Positions 30,730-47,018 of a stretch of 47,210 nt of DNA are shown piece by piece. A model generated the notes under the pieces. It was not told the DNA's origin and did not search any database. It saw nothing but the letters and a program-made list of their open reading frames with translations. Source of the DNA: Thermodesulfobacteriota bacterium (lineage in GTDB: Bacteria > Desulfobacterota > DSM-4660 > Desulfatiglandales > Desulfatiglandaceae); contig JANQDY010000125.1 of the NCBI GenBank assembly GCA_028278625.1, positions 1 through 47,210 on the forward strand, in the 5' to 3' direction. Numbering within the stretch: the first letter of the stretch is position 1; each line of letters begins with the position of its first letter. A program made the position numbers and the translations under genes.

Positions 30730-30730
30730 A

Positions 30731-30745
30731 GCAAAAAACGTGCCA
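30731..30745 (-). promoter_or_regulatory. Consensus sigma-54 promoter of the crotonase gene
   Basis: On the minus strand this reads TGGCACGTTTTTTGC, an exact match to TGGCAC-N5-TTGC with a G after TGGCAC. The expected start is near 30719, about 110 bp before the crotonase ATG at 30607. Confidence 0.8.
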
Positions 30746-30827
30746 TACAATGATTCGCGGGCCATGGACGTCCTTGGAAGGGAGTCAGCGGGAAAGCAAG
30801 GTTTAATTCCGGTCATCCAATTGATTT

Positions 30828-30842: not shown

Positions 30843-30983
30843 TTATAACATTTGGCATTGGAACGGCTCTGGCTCTGTCCGGGAACGGCCGGATACCCCA
30901 GCGCCCAATTGCAGTGAAATCCCGCCAGGTCTGTCTCTGATAAAGTAAGGGCCGGCACAACAGGGGATGAAAGGAGGTTTTCT

Positions 30984-31973: not shown

Positions 31974-31977
31974 AGCG

Positions 31978-32769
31978 ATGGAATATACCAAGCAGGAATT
32001 CATGGCCATTGTTACCGGCCGAGAGATCGCCGACGGTCAGCTCATCATCCTGGGAGTGGGACTTTCCATGCTGGCCGGATACTTCGCCCAAAAAAACCAC
32101 GCACCAAACCTGATGCCCTTTACCGAGGGCGGGGTCTATGGCTCCACACCGGTGGGGGGACTGCCCTGGGGCATCGAATGCAACCGCATCAGCGCCAACG
32201 CCACCAGCTTCACCAACGCCATCGACGCCCTGGGGTTTTTAGTGGCTTCGGGCCGTTGCGACAACGCCGTGATCGGCGCGGCCCAGGTGGACAAGTACGG
32301 CAACGTCAATACCACCGGCATCTGGGAAGCGCCTCCCTGGAAGCTGGGCAAATACTCCCCGCCCCGGATCCGTTTGAACGGTTCGGGCGGCGCCAACGAC
32401 ATCGCCGTTGGGGCCAAGAACTATCTGATCATGGCCAGCCACGAGAAGCGCCGTTTCATGGAAAAGGTGGATTACATCTCTTCTCCTGGCTATCTGGACG
32501 GTGGTGACGCCCGTGAGCGCGCGGGCTTCGTGGGAGGCGGCCCTTCGGCCATCATCTCCACCCTGGGCATTCTGCGGCCGAACCCGGATAGCAAGGAGTT
32601 CATCCTTGATGCCTATTACCCCTTCACCAACGTAGAGAAGGTCAAGGAAAACACCGGCTGGGATTTGAAGGTGAGCGACCGGGTGAAAATGGTGCCCGAG
32701 CCCAGCAAAGAGGAATTGGCCAATCTTCGATCAGTGGACACCACCGGCAGTCTGCGCAAAAAGGGGTAG
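31978..32769 (+). CDS. CoA-transferase subunit B (GctB-like)
   Basis: This 263-residue beta subunit has LIILGVGLSMLAGYFAQ at the N-terminus. MPFTEGGVYG follows, where the Glu is the likely CoA-accepting catalytic residue of family I. Further elements are AAQVDKYGNVNTTGIW, LNGSGGANDIAVGAK and the C-terminal VGGGPSAIISTLGIL. The enzyme works by a glutamyl-CoA thioester intermediate. It ends the operon, and a repeat encoding the tail of an unrelated membrane protein begins 5 bp after its stop. Confidence 0.88.
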   Translation: MEYTKQEFMAIVTGREIADGQLIILGVGLSMLAGYFAQKNHAPNLMPFTEGGVYGSTPVGGLPWGIECNRISANATSFTNAIDALGFLVASGRCDNAVIGAAQVDKYGNVNTTGIWEAPPWKLGKYSPPRIRLNGSGGANDIAVGAKNYLIMASHEKRRFMEKVDYISSPGYLDGGDARERAGFVGGGPSAIISTLGILRPNPDSKEFILDAYYPFTNVEKVKENTGWDLKVSDRVKMVPEPSKEELANLRSVDTTGSLRKKG

Positions 32770-32914: not shown

Positions 32915-34324
32915 TCACGCATAAGCCTTTTCCCCCCGTCGTACCATGTGAGCCGGTTCTTCATTGTTCATCCCGGATGTTTCAGCATACTCCTCTTGCC
33001 ACACCCGATCCGCCACTTCACTCCAACACTTGGCGTAGCTATCCATTTCTTCCTTGTGAACCGTATAGATCTCTTCCGCGCCCTCATGGGTGAATTTCGG
33101 TTGAATCTCCTCGATCACTTCGCGCATCACCTGGGGGTTGTCAATGATCATGCAGGGACGAAGATGATTGGGATTGTGCGGTTGACACGACCTGATTTTT
33201 TGGAACAGTGAACTGTTCAACGTCTCGGCCAAAGGTTTGTCATGGATGTTGTCAACCGCAATATGGGCATAAACGCACGGCTCCACATCACCCTTCGCAT
33301 TGACATGAAAATATCGCCTTCCGCCCGCGATACAGCCATCCACATAGGGCCCGTCATTCCAAAAATCCAGGACGAAAATCGGTCGTTCATCCCTGATGGT
33401 CATTACGCATTTTCTGAGACGATTCCGCTGTTCCGGCGTCACCAGAAGGTTGAAGTCGGCCTGCCCGTTCACCGGTAGGTAGAGAAAATACATCTGCGCC
33501 ATTGACCCCACATCCATCATCCGGTCAATGAACACCAGCGAAGAGACGGTATCCGCGTTTTGCCGGGTCACCGTTGCGGATGTTCCGATGAGGACGCGGG
33601 CCGCATCCAAATGCTCGAATGCCCCCATGATCTTTCGGTACACGCCCGGGCCTCGCCAGGCATCGGTTTCCCTCTCTCCGCCCTCAATGCTGATGACGAC
33701 CATGGCATTCCCCAATTCGGCAAATCGTCGTGCTTTGTCTCGGGTCATCAGAGTGCCATTTGTGTACACCTGGAAAAAGATGGATGGATGTCGCTCCAGC
33801 AAGGCAAAGAGGTGAGGGTACATGAGTGGTTCCCCTCCCAGAACGGTCACGAAATAGATTCCCAATGCTTCACACTCTGAGAGAAGCCGGTCGGCCACCG
33901 CAAATGATAGTTCCGGCCTCATGCCGTATCCCAGCGTGTAACAACCCTTGCACCTCAGGTTGCACTGAAGGGTAGGGCTCAATATCATGATAAATGGAGG
34001 ACGGTATCCCATGTCTCTCTCAAACCGGTCCCGCAGTTTCCCCCCTTCGAAAAACGCCCCGTTAAACAGCGTCTCGAACAGCTTTACTCTCCGGTCAGCG
34101 GGCAGATACTCTAGAACCCTTCGAAACAGCTTTTTGGCGGGATGACCCTCTGCCAGCAGGAGCCGTTTCACCTGCTCAATGGCGGAGAGCACTTCTGGAT
34201 CATTGCTCAGCCATTTCCCCAAGGTTACGAGGCGTATCAAATTTTCATCGGAAATCCTGGGCAACAGACGTAAAATCCCCCGCACCGCCTGCTGCCTGGT
34301 TTGGAATTTCAAGCTCTCGGGCAT
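32915..34324 (-). CDS. Radical SAM/SPASM-like protein
   Basis: This is a 469-residue protein. An N-terminal helical region of about 105 residues precedes the radical SAM motif CNLRCKGC (C121-x3-C125-x2-C128). GGEPLM (SAM-binding) and a barrel with VYTNGTLM follow. The C-terminal part has DGCIAGGRRYFHVNAKGDVEPC and CQPHNPNHLRPC, cysteine patterns of a SPASM or Twitch domain that binds auxiliary iron-sulfur clusters. Such enzymes mature peptides or modify proteins, but no precursor peptide was seen nearby. AGGAGGT precedes the ATG. An intrinsic terminator for the upstream operon lies only about 40 bp before its start, so it needs its own promoter or read-through. Confidence 0.88.
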   Translation of the reverse strand: MPESLKFQTRQQAVRGILRLLPRISDENLIRLVTLGKWLSNDPEVLSAIEQVKRLLLAEGHPAKKLFRRVLEYLPADRRVKLFETLFNGAFFEGGKLRDRFERDMGYRPPFIMILSPTLQCNLRCKGCYTLGYGMRPELSFAVADRLLSECEALGIYFVTVLGGEPLMYPHLFALLERHPSIFFQVYTNGTLMTRDKARRFAELGNAMVVISIEGGERETDAWRGPGVYRKIMGAFEHLDAARVLIGTSATVTRQNADTVSSLVFIDRMMDVGSMAQMYFLYLPVNGQADFNLLVTPEQRNRLRKCVMTIRDERPIFVLDFWNDGPYVDGCIAGGRRYFHVNAKGDVEPCVYAHIAVDNIHDKPLAETLNSSLFQKIRSCQPHNPNHLRPCMIIDNPQVMREVIEEIQPKFTHEGAEEIYTVHKEEMDSYAKCWSEVADRVWQEEYAETSGMNNEEPAHMVRRGEKAYA

Positions 34325-34498: not shown

Positions 34499-35344
34499 TC
34501 AATTTTTCGGCGCCAGTTTCAACCTGCTGAAGGATTCAATCTGCTGTTTGATACCCCGTTCGGTTGGTAGCCTTTCCGCGCTTGAAGCGCCATAAAAACC
34601 AATGACGCCCGGCATCTTCTCCAAAGCTTTTCCAACGTTTTCCGGCTCGTCAAACGGTCCGCCATGACAGATGACCATCAAATCCTTTCTGACGGACCAG
34701 CCCGCCTCCGCCTGGGCCATCACAATATCTATGGCTTCATCCAATGTCAGGGCAGCCGCAGCTCCGATGGAACCGGCGGTTGTGAGCCCCACATGAGGAA
34801 CAAGAAGGTCCGCGCCTGCCTTGGCCATTGCCTTGGCTTCATCAATATTGAATACATATGGCGATGTGAAAAGGTCCATTTCATGGGCGAGAGCGATCAT
34901 TTCCACTTCTTTATTGTAATCCAAGCCAGTGGCTTCCATGTTTTCACGCATCACCCCTTCAAACAGTCCCACCGTGGGGAAATTCTGCACGCCTGAAAAT
35001 CCGGCATCCGCAATCTCCTGCAGAAAGTGTGGCATTTGTCTGAACGGATCGGTGGCGTGGACCCCCGCGAGCACGGGTGCGTTCTTTACGACCGGCAGCA
35101 CCTCCGCCGCCATTTCCATTACAATTGCGTTGGCGTCTCCGTATGAGAACAGTCCCGTGAGCGAACTGCGTCCTGCCATACGATATCGCCCCGTATTGTA
35201 AATAATGAGCAGATCGGCGCCTCCGGCCTCTTCCATTTTTGCGGAAATACCGGTTCCAGCGCCGCATCCGATGATCGGTTTGCCAGCTTCCACTTTGTTA
35301 TGGAGGCTTTTAAGTATATCTTTTCGTGGGATTCTTTTACCCAT
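34499..35344 (-). CDS. PEP-hydrolase-family TIM-barrel protein (paralogue 1)
   Basis: This 281-residue protein belongs to the family known as phosphoenolpyruvate hydrolase-like or TIM-barrel signal transduction (PF09370 as I recall), which also forms the C-terminal half of Tm-1-like proteins. Conserved-looking elements are GCGAGTGISAK (26-36), IIYNTGRYRMAG (47-58), YGDANAIV, VLAGVHATDPF, FSGVQNFPT, SPYVFN, VICHGGP (224-230) and GASSAERLP (252-260). The many Gly-flanked polar loops suggest a phosphate- or carboxylate-binding barrel. AAAGGAA precedes the ATG. It lies 19 bp after the Tm-1-like gene and is probably its partner. Paralogue 2 (44036) and the sensor of the activator at 45225 share the fold. 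The reaction is not established. Confidence 0.88.
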   Translation of the reverse strand: MGKRIPRKDILKSLHNKVEAGKPIIGCGAGTGISAKMEEAGGADLLIIYNTGRYRMAGRSSLTGLFSYGDANAIVMEMAAEVLPVVKNAPVLAGVHATDPFRQMPHFLQEIADAGFSGVQNFPTVGLFEGVMRENMEATGLDYNKEVEMIALAHEMDLFTSPYVFNIDEAKAMAKAGADLLVPHVGLTTAGSIGAAAALTLDEAIDIVMAQAEAGWSVRKDLMVICHGGPFDEPENVGKALEKMPGVIGFYGASSAERLPTERGIKQQIESFSRLKLAPKN

Positions 35345-35363
35345 TGCTTCATTCCTTTCTCAG

Positions 35364-36578
35364 CTATTTCTTCCCAAGAAATTCAAGCATCTTATCTGCT
35401 ACAGCATCTGAGAAGTCCTGATCATTGACGTTGTTATCCATTCCAATTATTTCTGTTTCTGCGCGCGCATTGCTTTTAATGGCTTTATAGAGCGCTTCAT
35501 TGGCTTCCGGCCACCAGAATTCCTTGCCCGGCGCATCCAGCATGGATACCCCTTTCAAGGGAAGAAATATTGCCACCGGACCCGTTGATTTATTTGTCTT
35601 TTCGGAAAGTTGACGCCCAAGTTCTGCGTTTTCCATGGGATCGGTTCGCATGAGCGTTACGCCGGGGGCCCATTGGTAGAAACGCCGATCATTGTACTTT
35701 TCAGGCACGGTTTCCCTTGCCCAGAAGTTGACCATGTCAACACACCCCGGCACGATAACCTGTGGAATTCCTCTATTGGAGGCAGCTTCCAAACGCGCGG
35801 GTCCCGCTGACAATTCACCGCCTGCCAGCTCGTCGGCCAGCTCCGTGGGGCTGATATCCAGAACTCCGTCAATATGACCCTCTTCAATTAAGCTTTCGAG
35901 CGTCATGCCCCCTGTTCCGACCGCATGGAAGACCAATACTTCATAGCCATTATCTTCCATGATTTCGCGGCAATGGGTCACAATGGGCGTGGTATTCCCA
36001 AACATTGAAGCGGCAAGCAACGGTTTTGCTTCAATTTCCGGGGCACGAGTTTCAAGCATACCGATGATGGCGCCAACCGCGTTGGCGTAAATTCTTGCGC
36101 TAAAACTGTTGACGCCGGATACATCAACGATAGAGGGAAACATGATGACGTCGCGTGTTCCCACATAGGCTTTTGTGTCGCCAGACGCCACTGTGGACAC
36201 CATTACCTTTGGGACACCTAAAGGGAGGGCTCTCATTGCGGCGGTGCCGGCGCCCGTTCCCCCGGATCCACCCATTGAAAAGACCGCGCCGATGATCCCT
36301 GTGTCGTATAGCTCCTTAACGACCGGAACGATACCCTTTGCGATCATTTCCATGGCATGACCCCGGTCTTCTTTACTCCTGAGTTCCTTAAGGGTTGTGC
36401 CGGCGGCTTCGGCAACGAGATTTGCCGAAACGTCCGGTTGAAAACCCGGCTTATCCATAACACTAATATCAATCATCAAGGCTGAGTGCCCCCGCTTTTC
36501 GATTTCCGATTTAACGAAGGAATAATCCTCACCCTTGGTATCAAACGCACCAATAACGGCGATTTTTTTTGGCATTGC
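35364..36578 (-). CDS. Tm-1-like ATP-binding protein (UPF0261)
   Basis: This is a 404-residue protein from ATG 36578, with GGGGT about 8 nt upstream; five more residues are open upstream. It has two Rossmann-like halves. The first has IAVIGAFDTKGEDYSFVKSE and FSMGGSGGTGAGTAAMRALP, with the glycine-rich loop matching the nucleotide-binding region reported for tomato Tm-1. The second has PIVTHCREIMEDNGYEVLVF and GTGGMTLESLIEEG. In plants and fungi this unit is fused to a PEP-hydrolase-like barrel; here the barrel is the next gene, 19 bp on. The bacterial function is unknown. Context with an ABC importer and two oxidoreductases suggests catabolism of an imported small molecule, with an ATP-dependent step here. 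Confidence 0.88.
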   Translation of the reverse strand, partial: AMPKKIAVIGAFDTKGEDYSFVKSEIEKRGHSALMIDISVMDKPGFQPDVSANLVAEAAGTTLKELRSKEDRGHAMEMIAKGIVPVVKELYDTGIIGAVFSMGGSGGTGAGTAAMRALPLGVPKVMVSTVASGDTKAYVGTRDVIMFPSIVDVSGVNSFSARIYANAVGAIIGMLETRAPEIEAKPLLAASMFGNTTPIVTHCREIMEDNGYEVLVFHAVGTGGMTLESLIEEGHIDGVLDISPTELADELAGGELSAGPARLEAASNRGIPQVIVPGCVDMVNFWARETVPEKYNDRRFYQWAPGVTLMRTDPMENAELGRQLSEKTNKSTGPVAIFLPLKGVSMLDAPGKEFWWPEANEALYKAIKSNARAETEIIGMDNNVNDQDFSDAVADKMLEFLGKK

Positions 36579-36778
36579 GTACACCCCGTTCATCCATTAA
36601 ATGGGTCAATTTACTGAAATTACGTTTATTTCCTGAGATAAACCTGTCTTATGGGGTTGAAAGGCGGCCAACGCCATAGGTCTGGCCCATGCTTGTAATT
36701 CAGGCATTAAAGCGCACGACCGCCTTTTCAAGGTTTTGAATGCGAATATTGGGTCTGACGTGTGAATCCGTTTTTTCT

Positions 36779-38719
36779 TTACGCCTGGAGCGCTGCTCTA
36801 AACCCGCCCCAAACGGCATTGTAAATCCTTCCGGGATCCACGCAGGTGCCTATGGATTGGACAAGGTAGCCATTCTCCTGGAATTGATCCGCCAAACCTG
36901 ATGGGTCAATGGGCTTAAAACCGGCCGCCACGACCACATCGTCAAACAGAAGATCAATTTCACCCTTTTTGTTCTTGGCTTTCACCCCATTTGCCGAAAT
37001 GCTGACACACTCGTGGTTGGTAAGAACCTTTATCCCTGCTTTTGCCACCTCATCATTAATTTGAAGCAGGAGCAGATAGTTTTCGTCCAATGCCAGGGCT
37101 TCCCTCATCTCCAATATGGTTACATCTTTCCCCTGGGCCGCCAAACAGAGGGCAGTGTCGCAGCCAACACCACCGCCACCGACAACACAGACCTTTTTGC
37201 CCAGGTTTTCCCCATCACTGGAAAGGACATCCGTTACGGCGTTCAGTTTGTCAGCGCCGGGAATAGGGGGTTCCATGGGGTCCATGCCAATGGCCACGAC
37301 CACGACTTCAGGGTCATATTCCGCAACGGTTTCCAGGGTCGCGGGTGTATTTAATTGAGCGTCGATTCCAAGCTTTTTGACCATTGCATCGTAGTATGCG
37401 ATGAGCGCAAGCAACTCGTCTTTCTTATAAGCGGGCTTTGCCGCGAGATTGATCAAACCGCCGATCTGGTCGGATTTCTCAAGCACTGTAACGGAGTGGC
37501 CTCTTCGAGTAGCGGTTACCGCATACTCGAGCCCCGCCACTCCGGCACCCACAACGACGATTCGTTTTGGCGCCGCCGCCGGCTTAACGAGGTCCTTGTA
37601 TTCGTGCCCACATTCGGGATTCAGAATGCATCCTGTTCTCCATCCCCTGAAAACGAAGCCCACGCAATCATTACATCTGATGCATTTGCGGATTTCATGG
37701 GGCCGATCTTCCTTCACTTTGTTGGGAAGGTCGGGATCCGCCAGTAGGGACCGCCCCATTGAAATCATATCCGCTTCACCTTTTTTGAGTATTTCACATG
37801 CCAGATCCTGGTCCCAGCCAAGGCCCCCAACGGCAATGACTGGAATATTCACCTCGGCCTTCACTGCCGCCGCCAAGGGCGCCAGGCAACCGGCGGGCAT
37901 GCCTTGGGTTGGAAAGATCCATGGCATTGAGTCGTAAATACCGGCGGAAACATCCAGGCAATCGATACCTTCATTCTCAAGGAGTTTGCCGAATTTGATG
38001 CCTTCTTCCAGGTCATAGCCGCCATCGATCTTTTCATCGGCGCTGTACCGATAGAGCAGGGGGTAGTCAGGACCGAGGGCCGCCCTTGAACGCCTGATGA
38101 TTTCAACGATGAAACGGGCGCGATTCTCAAAGCTGCCACCCCATTTGTCGGTACGCAGGTTGGTGCGGGGTGACAGGAATTGGGTCGGGAGATATCCATG
38201 GGCCCCGTGAAATTCAACCCCGTCGAATCCGGCCATTTGACTCCTCACGGCACCGGCCACATACAGTTGAATATAATGTTCAATGTCCTCCTCGGTCATT
38301 ACCCGGGGCATGTCACCGCCAAAGGACTGCGTGGCGGACGGGGCAATGGGGAGCCGTCCCCCCTCGGTGTTGGAAACTGCCTGCTGTCTTCCCGGTTGAT
38401 GAAGCTGCGTTACCATTTTTGCGCCGTGAGCGTGGACCGCCTGTACAAGATCCGCGAGTCCGCAGATAAATCTGTCGTCGTCGATCCTGGCCGGATTGCC
38501 GGGGGCCCTTCCAAGTTCCCAGTCAATACAGGTGTTCTCGAGTACAATCAGTGCGATGCCGCCTTTTGCCCGTGCCGCGTGGTATGCGATAAGTCGATCC
38601 GTAACCTCACCATTGCTGCTTGCCATCTTTGTATGCATGGGCGCCATGACCGTTCTGTTGCGTAGTTTCATGGTACCGATGGAGATGGGTTCAAATAGTT
38701 CTTTGTATTTTTCGCTCAT
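36779..38719 (-). CDS. Old-yellow-enzyme/FadH-like NAD(P)H:flavin oxidoreductase
   Basis: This 646-residue protein has the 2,4-dienoyl-CoA reductase layout. An FMN-binding TIM barrel spans 1-330 (MAPMHTKMAS; GFDGVEFHGAHGYL, with the catalytic HGAHGYL). An iron-sulfur segment has CIRCNDC and a later GCILNPECG. An FAD/NAD(P)H domain spans about 380-646 (IVVVGAGVAGLEYA; KVCVVGGGGVGCDTA). Electrons would pass NAD(P)H-FAD-4Fe4S-FMN to an activated C=C bond. AGGAGG precedes the ATG. A 185-bp gap separates it from the downstream Tm-1-like gene. The likely role is reduction of an unsaturated intermediate of the imported compound. Confidence 0.9.
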   Translation of the reverse strand: MSEKYKELFEPISIGTMKLRNRTVMAPMHTKMASSNGEVTDRLIAYHAARAKGGIALIVLENTCIDWELGRAPGNPARIDDDRFICGLADLVQAVHAHGAKMVTQLHQPGRQQAVSNTEGGRLPIAPSATQSFGGDMPRVMTEEDIEHYIQLYVAGAVRSQMAGFDGVEFHGAHGYLPTQFLSPRTNLRTDKWGGSFENRARFIVEIIRRSRAALGPDYPLLYRYSADEKIDGGYDLEEGIKFGKLLENEGIDCLDVSAGIYDSMPWIFPTQGMPAGCLAPLAAAVKAEVNIPVIAVGGLGWDQDLACEILKKGEADMISMGRSLLADPDLPNKVKEDRPHEIRKCIRCNDCVGFVFRGWRTGCILNPECGHEYKDLVKPAAAPKRIVVVGAGVAGLEYAVTATRRGHSVTVLEKSDQIGGLINLAAKPAYKKDELLALIAYYDAMVKKLGIDAQLNTPATLETVAEYDPEVVVVAIGMDPMEPPIPGADKLNAVTDVLSSDGENLGKKVCVVGGGGVGCDTALCLAAQGKDVTILEMREALALDENYLLLLQINDEVAKAGIKVLTNHECVSISANGVKAKNKKGEIDLLFDDVVVAAGFKPIDPSGLADQFQENGYLVQSIGTCVDPGRIYNAVWGGFRAALQA

Positions 38720-38805
38720 TCTTAGATTCCTCCTACTATTCAGTTTTACATTGCCTGTTCAAGGGATCAGGGGCGGGCACCTTTCTTGGCGTCAACCCGC
38801 TGCCA

Positions 38806-39831
38806 TTACTTTTTATTTTTTTTCACCAATTCTCTCATCCAAGGGGTCCAACCGACCCCGGATTCTCCCCAGTTGGGAAAATACTTTTTGGTCGGCATCA
38901 GCTGCTTTTTCGGCATTTCCCGCAAGGTCTTCTGGGCGATAGGCGTAACGGGTCCCAGATATCGCCGTGGCACTTCCTCTCCCCGGATCGCCTTCATGGC
39001 AAACCGAACTGCGATTCTTCCCAGTTCTCTCGAATCCGTGGCCACGGTGAATTTCCAGGGGCTGTTGGCTGCCCGCATCATGGAAATATCCTGGGCGTCC
39101 ACATCGATGCTGTAAATGGGGATATTCTTCCCGGAGGCCTTGACCGCTTTAAAGGCCGCAACGGCAAACTGATCCCAGCAAGCCAGGACGGCGTCAAGGT
39201 CCGGATGGGCTTTAATGACGGCCTCCATCTTCGCCATATTGTCCGCAACCACCGATGCGCCGGCACTGCCAAATTCAGATACGATTTTAATGCCGGGATA
39301 TTTCTCCAACTCCAGTTTCAACTGTGCCTTCCTTCTCTCCATGGGTGCGAATCCCCCCACCCATATGAGTGCAATTTTCCCTTTTCCCCCAAGGTCCTCG
39401 GCCATTTTCGTAAACGCGTCGTGCATGAACGCTTTATCGTTTTGGTCGATTTCGCATACCGTATTTTTTGGCATGATGAGGCAGGTATTCAAAACGGGGA
39501 TGCCCTGTTTGGCGGCGACCCCCACGAGATTGGCAAGGGGTTCGGTCTGGCCGTGCTGGATGATAATCGCGTCGGGTTTGCCTTTTATGGTGGCAGCCAA
39601 TTGATCCACCTGTTTTGCCGGATCCCACCCGGCATCGGTAATGGTTACCTTCACCCCTAACTCTCGGGCCATGCTTTTTACGCCATCAACGTATTGAACG
39701 GCCCACGGCCATGTGGCTGACTGGCTGACCAAAGCAAACCGTATCTGCTTTTCTTTGGCAATGGCGAAAGGAATGGAGAAAACAAGTGAAATTATGACTG
39801 CCACGAACAGTGTTTTACCTATAAGCTTCAT
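38806..39831 (-). CDS. Ribose-type ABC transporter substrate-binding protein
   Basis: This 341-residue periplasmic protein has a signal peptide at residues 1-25 ending AIA-K. Its RbsB-like fold (periplasmic-binding type 1) has QIRFALVSQSATWPWAVQYV, PDAIIIQHGQTEPLANLV, DAVLACWDQFAVAAFKAVK and IYSIDVDAQDISMM. Family members bind sugars, polyols or other small ligands such as AI-2. The ligand pocket cannot be assigned. GGGAGGG precedes the ATG. A hairpin lies between the permease and this gene. Confidence 0.88.
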   Translation of the reverse strand: MKLIGKTLFVAVIISLVFSIPFAIAKEKQIRFALVSQSATWPWAVQYVDGVKSMARELGVKVTITDAGWDPAKQVDQLAATIKGKPDAIIIQHGQTEPLANLVGVAAKQGIPVLNTCLIMPKNTVCEIDQNDKAFMHDAFTKMAEDLGGKGKIALIWVGGFAPMERRKAQLKLELEKYPGIKIVSEFGSAGASVVADNMAKMEAVIKAHPDLDAVLACWDQFAVAAFKAVKASGKNIPIYSIDVDAQDISMMRAANSPWKFTVATDSRELGRIAVRFAMKAIRGEEVPRRYLGPVTPIAQKTLREMPKKQLMPTKKYFPNWGESGVGWTPWMRELVKKNKK

Positions 39832-39884
39832 AATGCGATCCCTCCCTAGAGTGTTAAGATGTTTTTAATCCACGATATTCGGCT

Positions 39885-39907
39885 GCGGGGAATGGTTTCT
39901 TCCCCGC
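39885..39907. other. Intercistronic hairpin between permease and binding-protein genes
   Basis: GCGGGGAA (39885-39892) pairs with TTCCCCGC (39900-39907) around a 7-nt loop. It lies in the 162-bp gap between the permease and binding-protein genes. Such hairpins in ABC operons can stabilise upstream mRNA and help set unequal expression of the binding protein. Confidence 0.45.
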
Positions 39908-39993
39908 GGCATTTTCTACCGGCCGGGTAGTTGTTTTCACACTTTATTTTGATTGTCGGTTTCAACAGTCTTGTTTAATTGTGCCGCCCTGTT

Positions 39994-40992
39994 CTATTTT
40001 TTTGCTCCCAGGTTTCCGATGACCAAGGCAACCAAAAGCACCACTCCGATAAATATATCCTGCGCCGTGTAGGGCACATTGAGCATGGTAAGGCCGTTAA
40101 GGATCACCGCAATGGTGATTGCTCCGATGAGGGTGCCGATGGGATTCGGTTTTCCGGAAGTTCCAACGGTGGTGCCGATAAAGGCTGCGGCCACTGAAGG
40201 TAGAAAGAAGGCCTGGCCGGCCAAAACCTGGCCCATGCCGAGGCGGGCCGCAAGAACAATCCCGCCCAATGATGCAAGCAGCCCTGACAATAAAAAGGCC
40301 AGCAGAATGATTTTTCGTGTCTTAATACCGCAGGCCCGTGCCGCCCCCTTGTTGCTTCCGGTTGCGTACATGAATCGTCCGGTTGTTGTGTAATGCAGAA
40401 ATATTGCGAGAAGAATGGCGACCACAAGCATAATGATGACGGGAATGGGGACTACGGAAAGATACCCTTGTCCTATAAAATTGAAGGCGTCGGAAATCGC
40501 TCCAGGAGCGGTTACCATGCCATCAGGCGTGCTGATATACATATGTGAATGGATAGATTGACCGCCGGCGGTGGTCAATTCAATGCCCTGGATCAAAAAG
40601 AGCATGCCCAAGGTTCCTAAAAGGCTCGATATTTTTAATATGATGGTCAAAAAGGCATTGATGGCGCCAATGCCCATGCCAATCAACAATGAGATGACAA
40701 TGGCCAGGGGCGCGGGAAATTCCGCCAGCACCATGAGAATACAGACGACCATGCTGGATAGACCGGCAGTGGCCGCCACGGATAAATCAAACTCATTGAC
40801 GACGAGAACGCATGTAAAACCTAATGCAATAAGAGCGGCAATAGACGCCGATCTCAAAATATCCATGATATTCGAAGAGGTGAAAAAGTTGGGCAAAGTT
40901 AAACCAAACACAATTACTAGTAAAATAAGTATGAATCCGAATGCATATGCCTTCAAGAATTTTCCTAGTTTGTTTTTTTGTTTTGTAGACAC
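39994..40992 (-). CDS. Ribose-type ABC transporter permease (RbsC-like)
   Basis: This 332-residue inner-membrane protein has about eight to ten hydrophobic helices. RbsC-type motifs are visible: ALGFTCVLVVNEFDLSVAATAGLSS near the N-terminus and TGRFMYATGSNKGAARACGIKTRK in the cytoplasmic EAA-like loop. The C-terminal part (NPIGTLIGAITIAVILNGL) is typical. The start is GTG 40992, with GGAGA about 7 nt upstream. It would pair with the ATPase at 41089 and the binding protein at 38806. Confidence 0.9.
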   Translation of the reverse strand: MSTKQKNKLGKFLKAYAFGFILILLVIVFGLTLPNFFTSSNIMDILRSASIAALIALGFTCVLVVNEFDLSVAATAGLSSMVVCILMVLAEFPAPLAIVISLLIGMGIGAINAFLTIILKISSLLGTLGMLFLIQGIELTTAGGQSIHSHMYISTPDGMVTAPGAISDAFNFIGQGYLSVVPIPVIIMLVVAILLAIFLHYTTTGRFMYATGSNKGAARACGIKTRKIILLAFLLSGLLASLGGIVLAARLGMGQVLAGQAFFLPSVAAAFIGTTVGTSGKPNPIGTLIGAITIAVILNGLTMLNVPYTAQDIFIGVVLLVALVIGNLGAKK

Positions 40993-41088
40993 GCCAAATT
41001 CTCCAATCTCAATGAATTATTTGATCATTTAAACAAATCATTTGAAATTAACTGAGAGATAATTATTACAGAACCAATACTGATTTAT

Positions 41089-42627
41089 TTAGTCTTCATT
41101 CGGACTCATGGACCAAGATAAAAGCTGTTCTTCACTTATTTTATCATTCGGGATCTCAACGGATATTTCTTTATCATACATGACTATTATTCTATGGCTT
41201 AGGGCCAATATTTCTTCAACTTCGTTGGAAATATAAATAATTCCAATGCCCTGCTTGGCCATTTCAACGACGATTGAGTAGATTTTCGCTTTGGCGCCGA
41301 TGTCTATTCCTTTGGTAGGCTCATCAAAAATGAATATACTTCTCTCGGGGAAAGCGAGCCATTTCCCGATGGCAATTTTTTGTTGATTGCCGCCGCTTAA
41401 TGTGTAAACGAATTGATCAACGCCGGAACACTTAACGTCCAGGTCTTTTATGATCTCATTAATTTTCTTTTCCTCCCTCGTACGGTCAACAATGCCGAGG
41501 TATTTGGAATACAGGCTTAGCGTGGGAAGACTGGTGTTAAACTTGATCGAGTTCTCAACCAGCAGTCCTTGACCTCTTCTGTCCTCATTCACCATAAAGA
41601 CTTTGCTGGAAATGGCATCGGAGGGATGCGCAAAATCAGCCTTCACCCCTTCAATGAAGACTTCTCCCCCATCCTTCTGTTCAAGCCCGAACAGTAAACG
41701 GGCCAGTTCCGTCTTTCCGGCGCCCACTTGGCCGTACACGCCTAAAATTTCACCCTTTTCCAGGTTGAAAGAGCATTCCCGAAGATATTTATGTTTTCTT
41801 AATTTCCGGACTTCCAGAAGGGGGGTATCGGATTTCTTGAACGCTCTTTCGGGGGCCCTGACTTCCACATATCCTCCCTTGCCCCCTACAATGGCCTGTA
41901 TTATATCGTTTTCATTAAGATCTTTTGTGGACTCGGTTAAGGTCCTTTTACCGTTTCGCATTACCGTGATGCGATCGGAGATTTCGAATATCTCCCTCAG
42001 ATGATGAGAAACATAAACAATACCTGTTTTATTATCCAGCAACATCCTGATCAATTGGAATAATTTTTTAATATCTTTCAGATCGAGACTCGTCGTCGGC
42101 TCATCAAAAAGAATGAACTTTCCTCCAAAGCTTATAGCCCTCGCAATGATAATAACTTGCTTTTGGTGCACTTTCAAATTTCGGACATAATCATCAGGAT
42201 CAATGTCATTTGCTTGAACCGTCTCTTCCAATATTTTTTCAGCTTTTATTCTCATCCGCTTCTGATTTACCCAACCTTTTTCTTGTCCCAAGACGCGCTC
42301 ATATAACAAAAGATTTTCTTTGACCGTAAAGTCAGGTATCAGTATTTGATCTACTTCCTGATGAACGCAGTTAATACCGTATTGTAGCGCTTTAATCGGC
42401 GTATTGAGATTTATAACATCTCTGTTAAAACTGATATTTCCCTTGTAATCATGGAAATCTCCGGCAAGGACTTTCATAAGAGTGCTCTTACCAGCACCAT
42501 TTGACCCGCAAAGTGCATGTACTTCACCGGATTTGACGTCAAAATCCACTTCATCAACCGCTTTTGTTCCTGAAAAAAACTTGGAGATACAACTTCCTTC
42601 AAGAGTGTTTAGGCTATCGATTTCCAT
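41089..42627 (-). CDS. Ribose-type ABC transporter ATPase (RbsA-like, two NBDs)
   Basis: This 512-residue protein starts at ATG 42627 (MEIDSL); 21 more residues are open upstream but look unlike the family. NBD1 has Walker A GSNGAGKST, a degenerate signature NLKVHQKQ and Walker B FILFDEPT. NBD2 has a degenerate Walker A GQVGAGKTE, a canonical signature LSGGNQQKIAIGKWL and Walker B FIFDEPT. This asymmetry is normal in RbsA/MglA proteins. It drives import with the permease and binding protein downstream. It is relatively A+T-rich. A strong hairpin separates it from the upstream SDR gene. Confidence 0.9.
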   Translation of the reverse strand: MEIDSLNTLEGSCISKFFSGTKAVDEVDFDVKSGEVHALCGSNGAGKSTLMKVLAGDFHDYKGNISFNRDVINLNTPIKALQYGINCVHQEVDQILIPDFTVKENLLLYERVLGQEKGWVNQKRMRIKAEKILEETVQANDIDPDDYVRNLKVHQKQVIIIARAISFGGKFILFDEPTTSLDLKDIKKLFQLIRMLLDNKTGIVYVSHHLREIFEISDRITVMRNGKRTLTESTKDLNENDIIQAIVGGKGGYVEVRAPERAFKKSDTPLLEVRKLRKHKYLRECSFNLEKGEILGVYGQVGAGKTELARLLFGLEQKDGGEVFIEGVKADFAHPSDAISSKVFMVNEDRRGQGLLVENSIKFNTSLPTLSLYSKYLGIVDRTREEKKINEIIKDLDVKCSGVDQFVYTLSGGNQQKIAIGKWLAFPERSIFIFDEPTKGIDIGAKAKIYSIVVEMAKQGIGIIYISNEVEEILALSHRIIVMYDKEISVEIPNDKISEEQLLSWSMSPNED

Positions 42628-42693
42628 GAGTCTATTTATATACTTCAATATCCATCGAATATAATGATTAAAGAGAATGTGGCATATCATGAG

Positions 42694-42730
42694 TGGGAAA
42701 TAGCGATCAAAGAATGAGAGCTATTTCCCA
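42694..42730 (-). terminator. 11-bp hairpin between SDR and ABC ATPase genes
   Basis: TGGGAAATAGC (42694-42704) pairs perfectly with GCTATTTCCCA (42720-42730) around a 15-nt loop, 17 bp after the SDR stop. Without a T-tract it is more likely an attenuator or mRNA-stabilising structure than a full terminator. Confidence 0.5.
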
Positions 42731-42747
42731 TCGGTTTACCAACGGGT

Positions 42748-43518
42748 TTAGTCGACCATCAACATTCCGCCGTTCACATGGATGTTTTGTCCATTAATGT
42801 AGTTGGCCTCTTCACTTGCCAAAAATGCCGTCAGACCCGCCAAATCGTCGGCTACTGAAAGCCTGTTGTTGGGGATGAACTGAATGAAATGCTGAAGGAG
42901 ATCTTTATGATCATCATGCATGGGTGTATCAACGATCCCCGGCGCAATACAATTTGCGTTGATGCCATCTTTTCCGTGTTCCCCCACAATACTTCTGGTG
43001 AGGGCCTGGACTGCGGATTTTGAAACACAATAATTGGAAGAACCACCTGAGGTATTGAAAATGTTGCATCGCGATGAGAGCGAAGATCCCACATTTACAA
43101 TTTTACCCCTTTGCTTTTTCACCATATGCGGCAGCACTTTTTGCGTGCAAAGAAAAACAGAGTTAAGATTGATATTGAGGACGCGGTTCCATTCCTCGAA
43201 ACTCATATCCACGATGGCATCGAAGGTTAGAATGCCGGCATTGTTTACAAGGATATCGATGGCGCCCCATTCTTTGACAACCGTGTCAACCATGCTTTCA
43301 ACCGCTTTTTCATCGGTGACATCCGTTTGAACCGCCAACCCTGTTTGTCCCGCTTTCTGCATCCGCTCAACCACTGATTGTGCCCCCTCCAGGTTGATAT
43401 CGACCACGGCCACTTTCGCCATGTTCTCTCCAAGCTTGAGGCAAATCGCCTCGCCAATCCCACTGGCACCGCCTGTAACCACCGCAACCTGTCCATCCAA
43501 ATCATACTTGTTACTCAT
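42748..43518 (-). CDS. SDR-family dehydrogenase/reductase
   Basis: This 256-residue classical SDR has the cofactor motif TGGASGIG (15-22), NNAG (92-95), catalytic Ser at 145/146, Tyr163 and Lys167 (YCVSK). Asp40 after strand 2 (VAVVDIN) favours NAD over NADP. It would oxidise a hydroxyl or reduce a carbonyl of a sugar- or polyol-like substrate. AAAGGAGG precedes the ATG. It precedes the ABC importer genes and is probably the first chemical step after uptake; that is inference. Confidence 0.9.
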   Translation of the reverse strand: MSNKYDLDGQVAVVTGGASGIGEAICLKLGENMAKVAVVDINLEGAQSVVERMQKAGQTGLAVQTDVTDEKAVESMVDTVVKEWGAIDILVNNAGILTFDAIVDMSFEEWNRVLNINLNSVFLCTQKVLPHMVKKQRGKIVNVGSSLSSRCNIFNTSGGSSNYCVSKSAVQALTRSIVGEHGKDGINANCIAPGIVDTPMHDDHKDLLQHFIQFIPNNRLSVADDLAGLTAFLASEEANYINGQNIHVNGGMLMVD

Positions 43519-43564
43519 AACTACCTCCTTTGAATCGATGATAAATTAAGGTTTTAATGCTTAA

Positions 43565-43613
43565 AGTCGTTGAATCACTGTTTAACGACTCGGTTTAACC
43601 ATGGGCATGCCCA
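43565..43613. promoter_or_regulatory. Paired dyads upstream of the SDR gene
   Basis: In the 286-bp gap 43519-43804, AGTCGTT (43565-43571) and AACGACT (43584-43590) form a perfect inverted repeat with a 12-nt spacer. TGGGCATGCCCA (43602-43613) is a perfect 12-bp palindrome. Both lie within 95 bp of the SDR start and are candidate regulator sites. No clear -24/-12 element was found in this gap; the remainder is A+T-rich with no gene. Confidence 0.4.
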
Positions 43614-43804
43614 CTCAACAAAAACACGTGTCTATACAAGCAATTTAAGATAGCCGTTATCCAAAAGGTCCGTACCAATACCGTGTGGGTGGGTCTATTT
43701 TATGCCACCATATTCCGGCCCGTTTTCGATGCGCTATATGTTTCTAATGGAATCCGTTCAATTGAACATATTTTTGATATCGTTCTTTTACTCGATTTTA
43801 TAGC

Positions 43805-43993
43805 TCAATTTTGACGCCACCATTTTCGTGAGTTTTGTATTGCTTCCTGAAAATTGTTAGTGATTTTTATCAAGTTTTCGTATTTAAGAGCAGGCTGATT
43901 ACTCTTCCAGCAATCCTGGCAATATTGATTTCCATGAAGTAAATAATAGCCTTTTTGCTCTATGATCGCCTTTCTACAAAGCGTACATTTCAC
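43805..43993 (-). CDS. Small LIM-like zinc-binding protein
   Basis: This 62-residue protein has MKCTLCRKAI, then a Tyr- and His-containing middle, then QYCQDCWKSN. The two C-x2-C pairs spaced about 20 residues apart look like half of a LIM or zinc-ribbon fold. The tail (about 38-62) is basic and helical. The start is GTG 43993, supported by GAGAGGAT just upstream. It lies 42 bp after the PEP-hydrolase paralogue 2 gene and is probably co-transcribed. It may be an adaptor or metallochaperone; no function is known. Confidence 0.7.
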   Translation of the reverse strand: MKCTLCRKAIIEQKGYYLLHGNQYCQDCWKSNQPALKYENLIKITNNFQEAIQNSRKWWRQN

Positions 43994-44035
43994 GGTTCAT
44001 CCTCTCGTGATCTCAATTCTTGAAGCTGCGTTATC

Positions 44036-44866
44036 TTAGGCTAATTCCAATTGCTTGAATCTCTCTACCTGTTCCCTTATGGCAGTTTCCGTGGGAAGCC
44101 TTTCCATGCTTGATGCGCCAAAAAACCCGTTTATACAGTTTGTCTTTGACAGGATGTAATCAACGTCCCTCGGATCAGCGATTGGGCCGCCGTGACAAAG
44201 ACATATAATTTCGGAACGTACGCGCTTGGCGGCATCGCAGATTTCCTGTATTTTGACTGCTGACTCCTCAAGTGCGTCAATTCTCGCCGCATCCTCTATC
44301 TCCCTCATGGTGATTCCCAGATGCACAACAATTGCGTCAACGTTCACTTCGGCCATGGCTCTGGCCTGATCCGCATTGAAGACATAGGGAGATGTGAAGA
44401 GATCCAGCTCTCTCGCCGTCTTTATCATTTGAACTTCAAGATCGAATCCCAACCCGTTGTCTTCGAGACCTTGCCGGAATAGTCCGTCACAGATGGCCAC
44501 CGTGGGGAAGTTTTGAACGCCGGAAAACCCCAATTCTTTTATTTCTTTTAAAAAGTGGTTCATTGCCCTAAATGGATCTGTTCCGCAGACCCCGGCCAGC
44601 ACGGGTGTGTTTTTGACCACATTCAACACCTCACTGGCAATTTCCACAACAATGGCATTGGCATCGCCGAAGGGCATTAAACCGGCCAAGGAACTGTGCC
44701 CCGCCATTCTGAATCTTCCCGAATTATAGATTATGATGAGATCGCACCCGCCGTTTTCTTCCATTTTTGCCGTAATTCCGCTACCGGCTCCCGCTCCGAT
44801 AATAGGATGTCCACGCTTTATTGTCTGTCTTAGCCGGTTTAGAACTTCTTGACGGGTAAATGGCAT
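44036..44866 (-). CDS. PEP-hydrolase-family TIM-barrel protein (paralogue 2)
   Basis: This 276-residue protein has the same order of motifs as paralogue 1: GAGAGSGITAK (24-34), IIYNSGRFRMAG (45-56), FGDANAIV, VLAGVCGTDPF, FSGVQNFPT, SPYVFN, CHGGP (224-228) and ASSMERLP (251-258). It diverges after about residue 185, where paralogue 1 has an alanine/glycine-rich stretch and this one a charged helix. It lacks an adjacent Tm-1 partner. The two may handle different substrates or form a heteromer. A candidate sigma-54 promoter lies 160 bp upstream, and the divergent gene encodes an activator with a related sensor. Confidence 0.88.
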   Translation of the reverse strand: MPFTRQEVLNRLRQTIKRGHPIIGAGAGSGITAKMEENGGCDLIIIYNSGRFRMAGHSSLAGLMPFGDANAIVVEIASEVLNVVKNTPVLAGVCGTDPFRAMNHFLKEIKELGFSGVQNFPTVAICDGLFRQGLEDNGLGFDLEVQMIKTARELDLFTSPYVFNADQARAMAEVNVDAIVVHLGITMREIEDAARIDALEESAVKIQEICDAAKRVRSEIICLCHGGPIADPRDVDYILSKTNCINGFFGASSMERLPTETAIREQVERFKQLELA

Positions 44867-45224
44867 TTCGCTAATCCTTCTATTAAGTACAACTTTATCG
44901 TTATTCTAATCTGTTAAGTCTCACTGTATCATTACAGAATCGTCAGAATGATCAATATATCAGTAGCTGCGTCGCTATAGGTCTCTGGCTTGGTTAAACA
45001 CATTGTCCACACGCTCCTTGATCACTCAAGAACCGTGCCGAAAAGAGCCCAGGTGTCGATAATAAAAAGAAATGCTTGTATTTGCAGATGCTTAAAGATA
45101 GCGTTTCACTTCTGGTTCATTTTGTGTTATTTACGATTTGTTTCGCGCAAGCTAAAAAAGTGTTTCGTAAAGGCCGTGGGGTATACACTTTCGTGTTTGA
45201 CTGTTACCTTGGGGAAAGGAGAAC
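44867..45224. other. Divergent regulatory region between paralogue 2 and the activator
   Basis: This 358-bp region is A+T-rich without a credible gene; an 81-residue plus-strand frame lacks coding signs. It holds a sigma-54-like element (45026-45040) and, closer to the activator, TGTTTCG repeated 22 bp apart (45139, 45161). It also holds an inverted repeat AAAGTGT (45157-45163) / ACACTTT (45185-45191). These last sites are plausible binding sites for the activator upstream of the paralogue 2 promoter. Confidence 0.45.
45026..45040 (-). promoter_or_regulatory. Candidate sigma-54 promoter of paralogue 2
   Basis: On the minus strand this reads CGGCAC-N5-TTGA, with a G after CGGCAC. Two mismatches to consensus, with GG, the -12 G and the spacing kept. 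It points towards the gene at 44866, next to a sigma-54 activator gene. Confidence 0.45.
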
Positions 45225-47018
45225 ATGAAGGATAAGAGTAAACAGCTGAAAGAAATATTTGACATTGCCAAGAATGGCAGTTTTCCCATTATATTCTGTA
45301 TTCCCGGATCGGGTCAGATTGCCAGATGCGCCACTGAAGGGGGCGCTCATTTCTTGATGGCCCTAAACGCCGGTCTTTACAGAAATGCGGGTGTTACTTC
45401 TCTGGGTACTTTCATGCCATACGGCAATGTTAATGATCAGATTGAAAGCTTGCTGAGAAATCAGATAATGCCAAGAAAGATCAAAATTCCCATCGTAGCG
45501 GGTGTAATGGCCAACGATCCCATAACACCGCAAAAATTCAGATTCAAACGGCTAAAGGGATTGGGAATTGCCGGAATAACAAATTGGCCCGCCCTTGGTT
45601 TTATCGACGGCAAGTACCGTGAGATACTGACTCGAGAAGGATTTACCGTTGATACAGAGATTGAAATGCTTGCCGAAGCCAAGCATTACGGATTCGCGAC
45701 TGTCGGATTCTCCGTCTCAACTAAAGACGCTGTTGCCATGGCCCAATCAGGGGTGGACGCCTTGATTCTGTCTGTTGGCTGGACGTTTGAAACGGAAAAC
45801 ACTTATGAAAAAAGCGATCGAATCCAGCGCAGTTTGGTAAAGATCAATGAGATGCATCAGGGTGTCCGTTCCACCGGCAAAGATATCGTCTGTCTTTTCT
45901 TTGGCGGCACAATCACATTGCCCGAGGATACCGCCACACTGTATCGAATGACCAACATTCATGGTTATGGAGGGGGTAGTGCATTTGAAAGTTTCCCCGT
46001 TGAAAAGACCGTAACCAATACAGTAAAGCAGTTTTGCTCGGTTCCGCGCCGAACTAAGGATTCGTCTTTTGAGGAAGGTATGGGCGAGATGTTGGGGGCA
46101 ACGCCTGTGATGCGGAAGTTGTATAAACTGATAGAGAACGTGGCCCCCCATCAATTCGTGAATGTATGTATTCAAGGAGAGTCAGGCGTGGGCAAGGAGA
46201 TCGTCGCAATTCAACTGCACCGTTTGAGCGACCGTTCCACGCAACCCTTTATTACCCTAAATTGCGGCGCCATACCGGACACGTTAATTGAGAGCGAATT
46301 TTTCGGACATGAAAAAGGGTCCTTTACGGGCGCTTTGAGCACAAGAATCGGCAAGTTTGAACTGGCCGATGGCGGAACACTTTTTTTGGATGAAGTTGCA
46401 GAGCTCAGCCCCAAAGCCCAGGTCAGTTTGCTCAGGGCAATACAACAAAAAGAAATATTCAGAGTGGGAGGTGAAAAGGCAATATCCATTGACATCAGAT
46501 TGATTGCGGCAACCCATCGAAATCTGAAGGAACTGGTTCAAGAGGGAAAATTTAGAGCGGATCTCTACTATCGTTTGAATATGATAACGTTAAATGTCCC
46601 CCCCCTGCGGATGCGCGCTCATGATATTCCACTTCTCGTTAAGAAATTCCTGGATGAGTACAAAAAGCAGTTCGAGAGGGAGTTGCTTGGTGTAACACCT
46701 GAGTTTATGCAACGACTCATGAACTACTCATGGCCCGGGAACGTGAGGGAACTCAAGCACGTATTGTGTCAGGCCATATTGCTTCAGGAAGGGCCAATCG
46801 TTCATGGACAACATGTCCATTTCGACACCGAGACTTCTGGCAGCGATAGCAATATCAAGGATCTTATTACAAACATACCCATTGTGAGAAACGAAGAAGA
46901 AAATGAGCTTATCAACGCGCTGAATAATGCGGGTGGGAATAAATCAAAGGCATCTAAAATGCTGGGAATTAGCAGGAAGACATTGTACTCAAGGCTTAAA
47001 AAGCTGGGAGTTGAATAA
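45225..47018 (+). CDS. Sigma-54 activator with PEP-hydrolase-like TIM-barrel sensor
   Basis: This 597-residue regulator starts at ATG 45225 with AAAGGAG upstream. Residues 1-270 are a TIM-barrel homologous to the two PEP-hydrolase-family proteins in this cluster. The AAA+ domain (about 290-525) has Walker A GESGVGKE (318-325), GSFTGA (365-370) and Walker B GGTLFLDE (383-390). A Fis-type HTH ends the protein (NKSKASKMLGISRKTLYSRLKKLG). In the barrel, positions equivalent to IIYNxGRxRMAG read MALNAGLYRNAG, CHGGP reads FFGGT, and GASSxERLP reads GGSAFESFP. Loss of the Arg and His suggests a ligand-binding sensor without catalysis. It probably detects the substrate or product of the pathway and activates the divergent genes. 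No phosphorylation domain is present. Confidence 0.92.
   Translation: MKDKSKQLKEIFDIAKNGSFPIIFCIPGSGQIARCATEGGAHFLMALNAGLYRNAGVTSLGTFMPYGNVNDQIESLLRNQIMPRKIKIPIVAGVMANDPITPQKFRFKRLKGLGIAGITNWPALGFIDGKYREILTREGFTVDTEIEMLAEAKHYGFATVGFSVSTKDAVAMAQSGVDALILSVGWTFETENTYEKSDRIQRSLVKINEMHQGVRSTGKDIVCLFFGGTITLPEDTATLYRMTNIHGYGGGSAFESFPVEKTVTNTVKQFCSVPRRTKDSSFEEGMGEMLGATPVMRKLYKLIENVAPHQFVNVCIQGESGVGKEIVAIQLHRLSDRSTQPFITLNCGAIPDTLIESEFFGHEKGSFTGALSTRIGKFELADGGTLFLDEVAELSPKAQVSLLRAIQQKEIFRVGGEKAISIDIRLIAATHRNLKELVQEGKFRADLYYRLNMITLNVPPLRMRAHDIPLLVKKFLDEYKKQFERELLGVTPEFMQRLMNYSWPGNVRELKHVLCQAILLQEGPIVHGQHVHFDTETSGSDSNIKDLITNIPIVRNEEENELINALNNAGGNKSKASKMLGISRKTLYSRLKKLGVE

Follow-up and report, generated by a model that had tools for sequence, protein, structure and literature searches.

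A nine-gene cluster and its divergent activator

The window analysed here is a 47,210-nucleotide stretch of contig JANQDY010000125.1 from a Thermodesulfobacteriota bacterium. At positions 34499-47018 it carries a gene cluster that the original prediction, made from the sequence alone, described as a catabolic system built around Tm-1-like and phosphoenolpyruvate (PEP) hydrolase-family proteins. Nine genes occupy the minus strand from 34499 to 44866, and a sigma-54 activator is encoded divergently on the plus strand from 45225. All of the open reading frames (ORFs) were found in their predicted places and on the predicted strands. Pfam matched all but the smallest of the anticipated components, namely two PEP-hydrolase-family barrels (PF09370), a UPF0261 protein, an old yellow enzyme (OYE)/FadH-like reductase, a short-chain dehydrogenase (SDR), a complete ribose-type importer and, at 45225-47018 on the plus strand, an activator with Sigma54_activat and HTH_8 domains. 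The genes are as follows.

34499-35344, minus strand: PF09370 barrel B, presumed enzyme, H184 and H227 present (Pfam PF09370, 4.3e-117)
35364-36593, minus strand: UPF0261/Tm-1-like protein, candidate small-molecule kinase (Pfam UPF0261 N and C domains)
36779-38719, minus strand: long OYE-family flavoprotein (FadH/BaiCD-like), presumed enone reductase (Pfam Oxidored_FMN and Pyr_redox)
38806-39831, minus strand: ribose-type periplasmic binding protein (Pfam Peripla_BP_4; closest solved structures 4ry8 and 5ulb)
39994-40992, minus strand: ribose-type importer permease (Pfam BPD_transp_2)
41089-42690, minus strand: importer ATPase with two ABC domains (Pfam ABC_tran)
42748-43518, minus strand: SDR, FabG-like (Pfam adh_short)
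43805-43993, minus strand: 62-aa CxxC...CxxC protein (Cys motif)
44036-44866, minus strand: PF09370 barrel A, presumed enzyme (Pfam PF09370, 1.3e-120)
45225-47018, plus strand: sigma-54 activator with PF09370 sensor barrel (residues 11-272), AAA+ domain and Fis-type helix-turn-helix (Pfam PF09370, Sigma54_activat and HTH_8)

The order of transcription is barrel A, the 62-aa protein, the SDR, the importer ATPase, the permease, the binding protein, the OYE-family enzyme, UPF0261 and barrel B. The intergenic gaps range from 19 to 286 nt, which is compatible with a single operon but is not proof of one. Against a curated PF09370 cut-off of 33.8 bits, barrel B scores 390.5, barrel A 402 and the N-terminus of the regulator 236 bits. 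The UPF0261 protein scores 200.8 and 282.9 bits for its N and C domains and groups with Tm-1. The importer has the composition of the ribose (CUT2) type, with a Peripla_BP_4 binding protein, a BPD_transp_2 permease and a double-domain ATPase. The 62-aa product had been called a small zinc protein, and its cysteines at positions 3, 6, 25 and 28 do form CxxC pairs; it has no match in Pfam or NCBIfam, so the name is a motif guess. No Rfam family or tRNA gene was found in the window, and a plasmid search found no near DNA relative of it.

UPF0261 and barrel genes occur together

Co-occurrence was assessed in several sets of genomes other than the window's own, with related loci cited here by L numbers. 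Of the 19 genome_contigs loci located through UPF0261, 16 have the UPF0261 and barrel genes side by side; among the exceptions, L012 has a barrel at 8 kb, and L015 and L019 have none in the stretch. A sample of 345 Desulfobacterota genomes was searched with the regulator's barrel rather than the PF09370 model, so that some barrels may be missed, and yielded barrels in 11 genomes. All 11 carry UPF0261, compared with 80 of the 345 overall (p = 6e-8), and the association holds when G001, which was reached through its UPF0261, is left out (p = 2.6e-7). Fifteen loci were taken from these 11 genomes, and the two genes lie at most 1 kb apart in 12 of them (exceptions: L076, L077 and L083). Among 398 Pseudomonadota genomes, 27 have a barrel, and UPF0261 lies beside the barrel in 20/20 fetched loci, which come from 17 of the 27 barrel-positive genomes.

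This co-occurrence is not new. A 2016 study reports that, of 504 bacterial genomes carrying TBST (TIM-barrel, PF09370), 491 also have UPF0261, with correlated trees and co-evolution, and it describes both families from bacteria, archaea, fungi and land plants (PMC5028733, Sci Rep 2016). The same study bears on the earlier statement that the two units are fused in plants and fungi. The statement holds for plants, whereas the fungal genes are generally unfused and only two Aspergillus genes are reported to show global similarity (PMC5028733).

The activator carries an apparently disarmed barrel

The original prediction of a dedicated sigma-54 activator was right about the divergent gene and overlooked its sensor: residues 11-272 are the third PF09370 barrel of the locus (5e-70). 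The remainder has the features of the sigma-54 activator family, with a Sigma54_activat match of 224 bits, an AAA+ domain with the Walker A motif GESGVGKE at 318, the GAFTGA-type loop GSFTGA at 365, and the HTH_8 domain. A search with the barrel part returned 71 proteins, all of which carry PF09370 and a sigma-54 domain; candidates were limited by length, and stand-alone barrels could not be returned. We assembled 77 regulators from 69 of these proteins (the window's row and fragment P0191 were dropped) and eight from the loci and the window. Many of the 77 are close relatives, that of L155 has no Sigma54_activat match at 1e-5, and that of L073 is cut.

Two histidines separate the regulators from the other barrels. 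H184 and H227, in the numbering of barrel B, are present in 48 of 48 aligned stand-alone barrels, whereas none of the 77 regulator barrels has either. Wrong ORF frames or lengths kept ten loci out of this alignment (L009, L014, L075, L083, L084, L155, L161, L162, L165 and L169). When these miscalled loci and ten plasmid loci were examined by tblastn, all 20 further stand-alone barrels had both histidines, giving a total of 68/68. Barrels A and B of the window carry the pair, whereas the window regulator has S and F in their place. Other residues are largely lost from the regulator barrels, including K36 (48 of 48 stand-alone barrels versus 5 of 77 regulators) and Y49 (45 versus 0), and T98 (42 versus 4), Y163 (47 versus 10) and G28 (44 versus 1) are also depleted. 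Retained in 72-77 of the 77 regulator barrels are G30, G32, N50, R55, D99, N121, P123, E146, T188, G228, G229, S254 and P260, a set that covers the beta7 GG and beta8 GxS loops. The beta7/beta8 glycine loops form the phosphate site in many TIM barrels. In a tree of 79 barrels that took 31 of the 77 regulators and gave long-branch warnings, the regulators all fall on one side of a 99/93 branch. Because both histidines are lost while the putative phosphate loops are kept, the simplest reading of these alignments is that the regulator barrel is a disarmed enzyme copy serving as a sensor.

Among whole genomes, it was the Desulfobacterota sample that supplied the closest regulators encountered, and the one close hit to a named protein belongs to a Thermodesulfobacteriota metagenome-assembled genome. 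A barrel-type activator lies within 3 kb of UPF0261 in six of the seven loci that have one, and at 6.5 kb in L155. The regulators of L073 and L074 are 61-64% identical to that of the window and are divergent from UPF0261 and barrel genes. Because of its position, the window's activator likely controls the 34499-44866 operon.

Two rhizobial plasmids encode a shortened PF09370 protein divergently from UPF0261 (L118:7041-7631 and L121:7019-7627). The ORFs are 196-202 aa long, and positions 55-175 of the profile are covered in L118.

UPF0261 as a candidate kinase

The predicted structure of the window's UPF0261 protein (pLDDT 90.7) matches tomato Tm-1 and PDB 9mpy. The latter is Saro_1862, a UPF0261 domain protein of Novosphingobium aromaticivorans with acetovanillone bound. 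According to a recent report, Novosphingobium acetovanillone catabolism starts with MarK, a single-component kinase (PMC13101465), and we infer that MarK is Saro_1862. In a tree of UPF0261 proteins, the window's copy shares a group of 43 rows (96/90) with Tm-1 and the majority of the other barrel-paired copies. Fourteen alignment columns mark the paired kind (90% or more among paired copies, no more than 50% among unpaired ones), and the window's protein matches 13 of them, with P249 as the exception; Tm-1 also matches 13. Kinase chemistry is a good bet for the window's UPF0261, and a phenolic substrate is not established. Direct transfer of the kinase function from Saro_1862 was rejected as a membership claim by the tree and the subfamily columns, and was retained as likely chemistry.

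UPF0261 genes of Desulfobacterota that lack a barrel are often found near UbiD, UbiX-like, PPDK_N and PEP-utiliser genes, neighbours that resemble phenol-phosphorylating and carboxylating systems. Seven such loci (L101, L102, L103, L104, L106, L108 and L109) share a recurrent cluster without PF09370. Genes in this set were assigned by clustering, each against a single scanned protein. All seven loci have two UPF0261 copies, UbiD and a UbiX-like gene; LysR and a PEP-utiliser occur in 6/7 each, PPDK_N in 5/7 and an AMP-ligase in 4/7. This cluster possibly serves anaerobic phenol activation, with an unexplained role for UPF0261.

Fold and possible reaction of the barrels

The barrel model (pLDDT 87.3, with loop 189-196 of low confidence) is a close match to 2p10. 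The next Foldseek matches are methylisocitrate lyase and PEP mutase-like chains (E ~1e-9, TM ~0.55), whereas in VIA-align the phosphate-binding barrels IGPS, 4ml9 and TrpA score equal to or higher than the lyase/mutase chains; absence from either list does not rule a family out. The beta7 glycines are invariant. Most economically, the barrel may act on the product of UPF0261 as a lyase, a hydrolase or a phosphatase-like enzyme; the Pfam label "PEP hydrolase-like" does not establish what it does.

The Foldseek ranking also suits an alternative that keeps the same operon and the coupling to import, with UPF0261 not a kinase. ATP would serve to activate a carboxylate or to power a ligase step or a change of conformation, and the barrel would be a lyase or hydrolase of an unphosphorylated acid, as in the methylisocitrate lyase/PEP mutase superfamily. 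The placement of the window's UPF0261 and Saro_1862 in different groups is likewise in its favor. The VIA-align scores of the phosphate-binding barrels and the invariant glycines speak against it, and we regard this alternative as rather unlikely.

Importers, fusions and partner genes

Besides the window, L013 has a ribose-type importer, as judged by similarity. Other loci have BPD_transp_2 permeases of branched-chain size (L073, L074, L084 and L085, of which L085 also encodes a Peripla_BP_6 binding protein) or TRAP DctM, as called by clustering with a scanned L080 protein (L077, L080, L082 and L083). In ten loci an ABC ATPase domain is fused to the N-terminus of UPF0261, giving proteins of 724-792 aa that were each verified with Pfam (L084, L091 from Variovorax, L155, L157, L158, L159, L161, L162, L165 and L167). 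Fusions of this kind speak for a coupling of import to the action of UPF0261. No paper on PF09370-sigma-54 or UPF0261-ABC fusions was among the matches listed in a search of titles and abstract starts in the open-licence literature, which is weak evidence of absence.

The nearest solved relative of the binding protein at 38806 is 4ry8, which we take to be a methylthioribose-binding protein. The sugar- or polyol-like substrate of the original prediction is suggested mainly by the fold of this binding protein; the only liganded UPF0261 structure found, 9mpy, contains an aromatic ketone. We considered a sugar pathway, and the likeness to 4ry8 together with the ALO-type oxidase of L085 is insufficient to name the ligand, although it may yet be a sugar.

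The OYE-family protein combines OYE and Pyr_redox domains and is matched by 6qkg (E 1e-99) and 1ps9 (E 3e-90); 6qkg ("NCR") is presumably 2-naphthoyl-CoA reductase. With the BaiCD model it scores 498 bits, below the NCBIfam equivalog cut-off of 825, and is thus not assigned as a BaiCD bile-acid reductase. Cysteines 346, 349, 352 and 364 have, by eye, the appearance of an Fe-S site. A long OYE that is 37-39% identical to this protein occurs in 4 of the 15 Desulfobacterota barrel loci (L078, L082, L083 and L086, with L082 and L086 near-identical copies), compared with none of the 20 loci chosen for a barrel-less UPF0261 (Fisher p 0.026). It adjoins UPF0261 or the barrel in L078 and L083 and is one gene away in L082 and L086.

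We do not claim the SDR as a conserved partner: the matches near other pairs are 27-39% identical, and SDRs are common. Further partners in barrel loci include a FAD_binding_2 flavoprotein (L153), molybdenum hydroxylase-type genes (L083 and L167), thiamine diphosphate enzymes (L077 and L080), and RuBisCO-like proteins, called by clustering with a scanned L114 protein (L076 and L077). A FAD_binding_4/ALO-type oxidase, whose name points to sugar lactones, is found in L085 (same DNA as L004), beside the pair nearest to barrel B. These partner genes fit the catabolism of an oxygenated, often cyclic compound, and no single substrate emerges.

A proposed inducible import-and-catabolism operon

Our preferred reading is that the cluster is a Tm-1-type (UPF0261 plus PF09370) operon for inducible import and catabolism; we assign it a probability of about 0.42. 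The single-system idea of the original prediction is partly supported, and the sensor barrel and ABC fusions improve it. The pairing, the frequent presence of an importer, the ABC fusions and the recurrence of OYE agree with it. The importer class varies and no conserved SDR counterpart was seen, so the exact gene set is local.

Gene content, pairing, fusions, fold and the missing histidines of the sensor barrels are observed; the kinase chemistry, the barrel reaction, the order of steps, the ligand and the activator's control of these genes are inferred, and the pathway would run as follows. The ribose-type importer would take up a small hydroxylated, probably cyclic compound, which UPF0261 would phosphorylate with ATP, either directly or in its SDR-oxidised form. 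The beta7/beta8 loops of a PF09370 barrel (HGGP and GASS) would grip the phosphate, and conserved residues of the barrel, including H184 and H227, would cleave or dephosphorylate the product. The OYE enzyme would reduce an enone intermediate. The divergent activator would sense a pathway compound via a barrel that has the putative phosphate loops and lacks the catalytic-type residues. A more specific proposal is that an import-coupled pair phosphorylates and cleaves the substrate, that the intermediate is read by the disarmed enzyme copy on the sigma-54 activator, and that plant Tm-1 descended from a catabolic kinase-lyase; in this full form we consider it doubtful.

Several observations weigh against an import-and-catabolism operon of this kind. 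In the 300 nt preceding each cluster gene there is no -24/-12 site with an intact GG/GC and at least 9 of 13 matches. Saro_1862 sits apart from the window's UPF0261, on a long branch among 30 unpaired copies (99/94), and matches 4 of the 14 columns of the paired kind. The paired label itself is not one clade, with 7 changes on the tree versus 27.6 with shuffled labels, and long-branch warnings apply to the UPF0261 tree as well as to that of the barrels. No activity of PF09370, or of barrel-paired UPF0261, was found in the literature searched.

Bare two-gene UPF0261-barrel units, which are found next to a TetR gene on conjugative plasmids from Pectobacterium, Vibrio and Serratia, also belong on this side of the balance, as they imply that importer, OYE and SDR are optional. 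Such units would suit detoxification or metabolite repair, with the pair clearing a metabolite that is harmful or damaged and the remaining genes as accessories, as would the reported presence of both families in plants, fungi and archaea (PMC5028733). Binding-protein importers and importer fusions argue for acquisition rather than removal, and we consider this explanation quite improbable.

Finally, the cluster looks as if it was assembled from two lineages. In the barrel tree, the closest relatives of barrel A are those of L073 and L074, both from Desulfobacterota and both accompanied by a related regulator. Barrel B lies closest to copies from Olavius Delta 1, in a group with Olavius Delta 1 and Chloroflexota barrels, and the window's UPF0261 is nearest to Chloroflexota, Armatimonadota and Olavius copies. 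This composite look keeps alive the possibility of two neighbouring systems, with importer, SDR, OYE and barrel A under the activator and, at the 3' end, UPF0261 and barrel B as a pair that was acquired separately. The gaps of 185 and 286 nt that interrupt the set point the same way. Two systems seem unlikely to us, given that all nine genes lie on one strand, that OYE adjoins or nearly adjoins UPF0261 or the barrel in the four loci named above, that importer-UPF0261 fusions exist in other loci, and that the cluster holds no other UPF0261 with which barrel A could pair.

Promoter scans and neighbouring genes

In six related loci, one 9/13 sigma-54 site each was found in L073 and L118, and none in the other four. 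A scan for sigma-70 promoters and terminators gave results at chance level. The divergent region of the cluster contains one imperfect direct and one imperfect inverted repeat pair, to which no clear meaning can be given.

Across the window, the two highest-scoring sigma-54 -24/-12 matches lie at 30730-30746 (minus strand) and 30858-30874 (plus strand), with 12 and 11 of 13 matches, respectively. They flank a divergent arrangement of an enoyl-CoA hydratase-like gene (29828-30607) and CoA-transferase-like genes (30984-32769), both named by eye, and a second sigma-54-type regulator (27880-29715) lies beside this pair. This arrangement is probably a separate divergent operon. Immediately downstream of the cluster, on the same strand, Pfam identifies a radical SAM/SPASM protein (32915-34324, minus strand). 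An 875-aa protein at 24744-27371 (minus strand) is by eye an apparent fusion of methyltransferase, pterin-binding and corrinoid-binding parts.

Comparison with known systems

No established ordinary job for barrel-paired UPF0261/PF09370 was found in the literature searched, and the best-known member, tomato Tm-1, blocks a virus. The cluster offers a handle on the original job of the Tm-1 family. Since one compound, or derivatives of it, should reach the binding protein, the activator with its enzyme-like sensor and the two enzymes, screening the soluble proteins for ligands could reveal the substrate. The regulator would also be a clear added case of an enzyme fold recruited as a sensor of its own pathway. 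If the more specific proposal given above is true, plant Tm-1, known as a virus inhibitor, would derive from a catabolic kinase-lyase.

The Tm-1/UPF0261-TBST pair comprises the same two families, and the window's UPF0261 groups with plant Tm-1; the accessible part of that study proposes no bacterial reaction and mentions no sigma-54 fusions, ABC fusions or OYE link (PMC5028733). Saro_1862 shares the UPF0261 fold, 30-32% identity and the motifs DTK, GGS, PK, FH, KGxS and ND..F with the window's protein, and differs in its tree group and in the paired-kind columns that Tm-1 retains. The Hpe/Acv acetovanillone pathway has a biotin-dependent carboxylase and a phosphatase beside the kinase, neither of which was found among the nine products of the cluster and its regulator that were scanned with Pfam. 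The OYE-plus-Pyr_redox architecture is common to the window's enzyme and the BaiCD, 2-naphthoyl-CoA and FadH reductases. Mll9387 (PDB 2p10) carries the predicted name "putative phosphonopyruvate hydrolase", and no activity was found for it; besides two barrels of this kind, the window has a sensor version. Ligand-responsive sigma-54 activators with other sensor domains include PrpR and those of the XylR/MobR type. These share with the window's activator a central AAA+ domain with GSFTGA, a Fis-type HTH, an N-terminal sensor and a divergent gene. Unlike them, the window's activator appears to use as its sensor a disarmed paralogue of the enzymes that it presumably controls.

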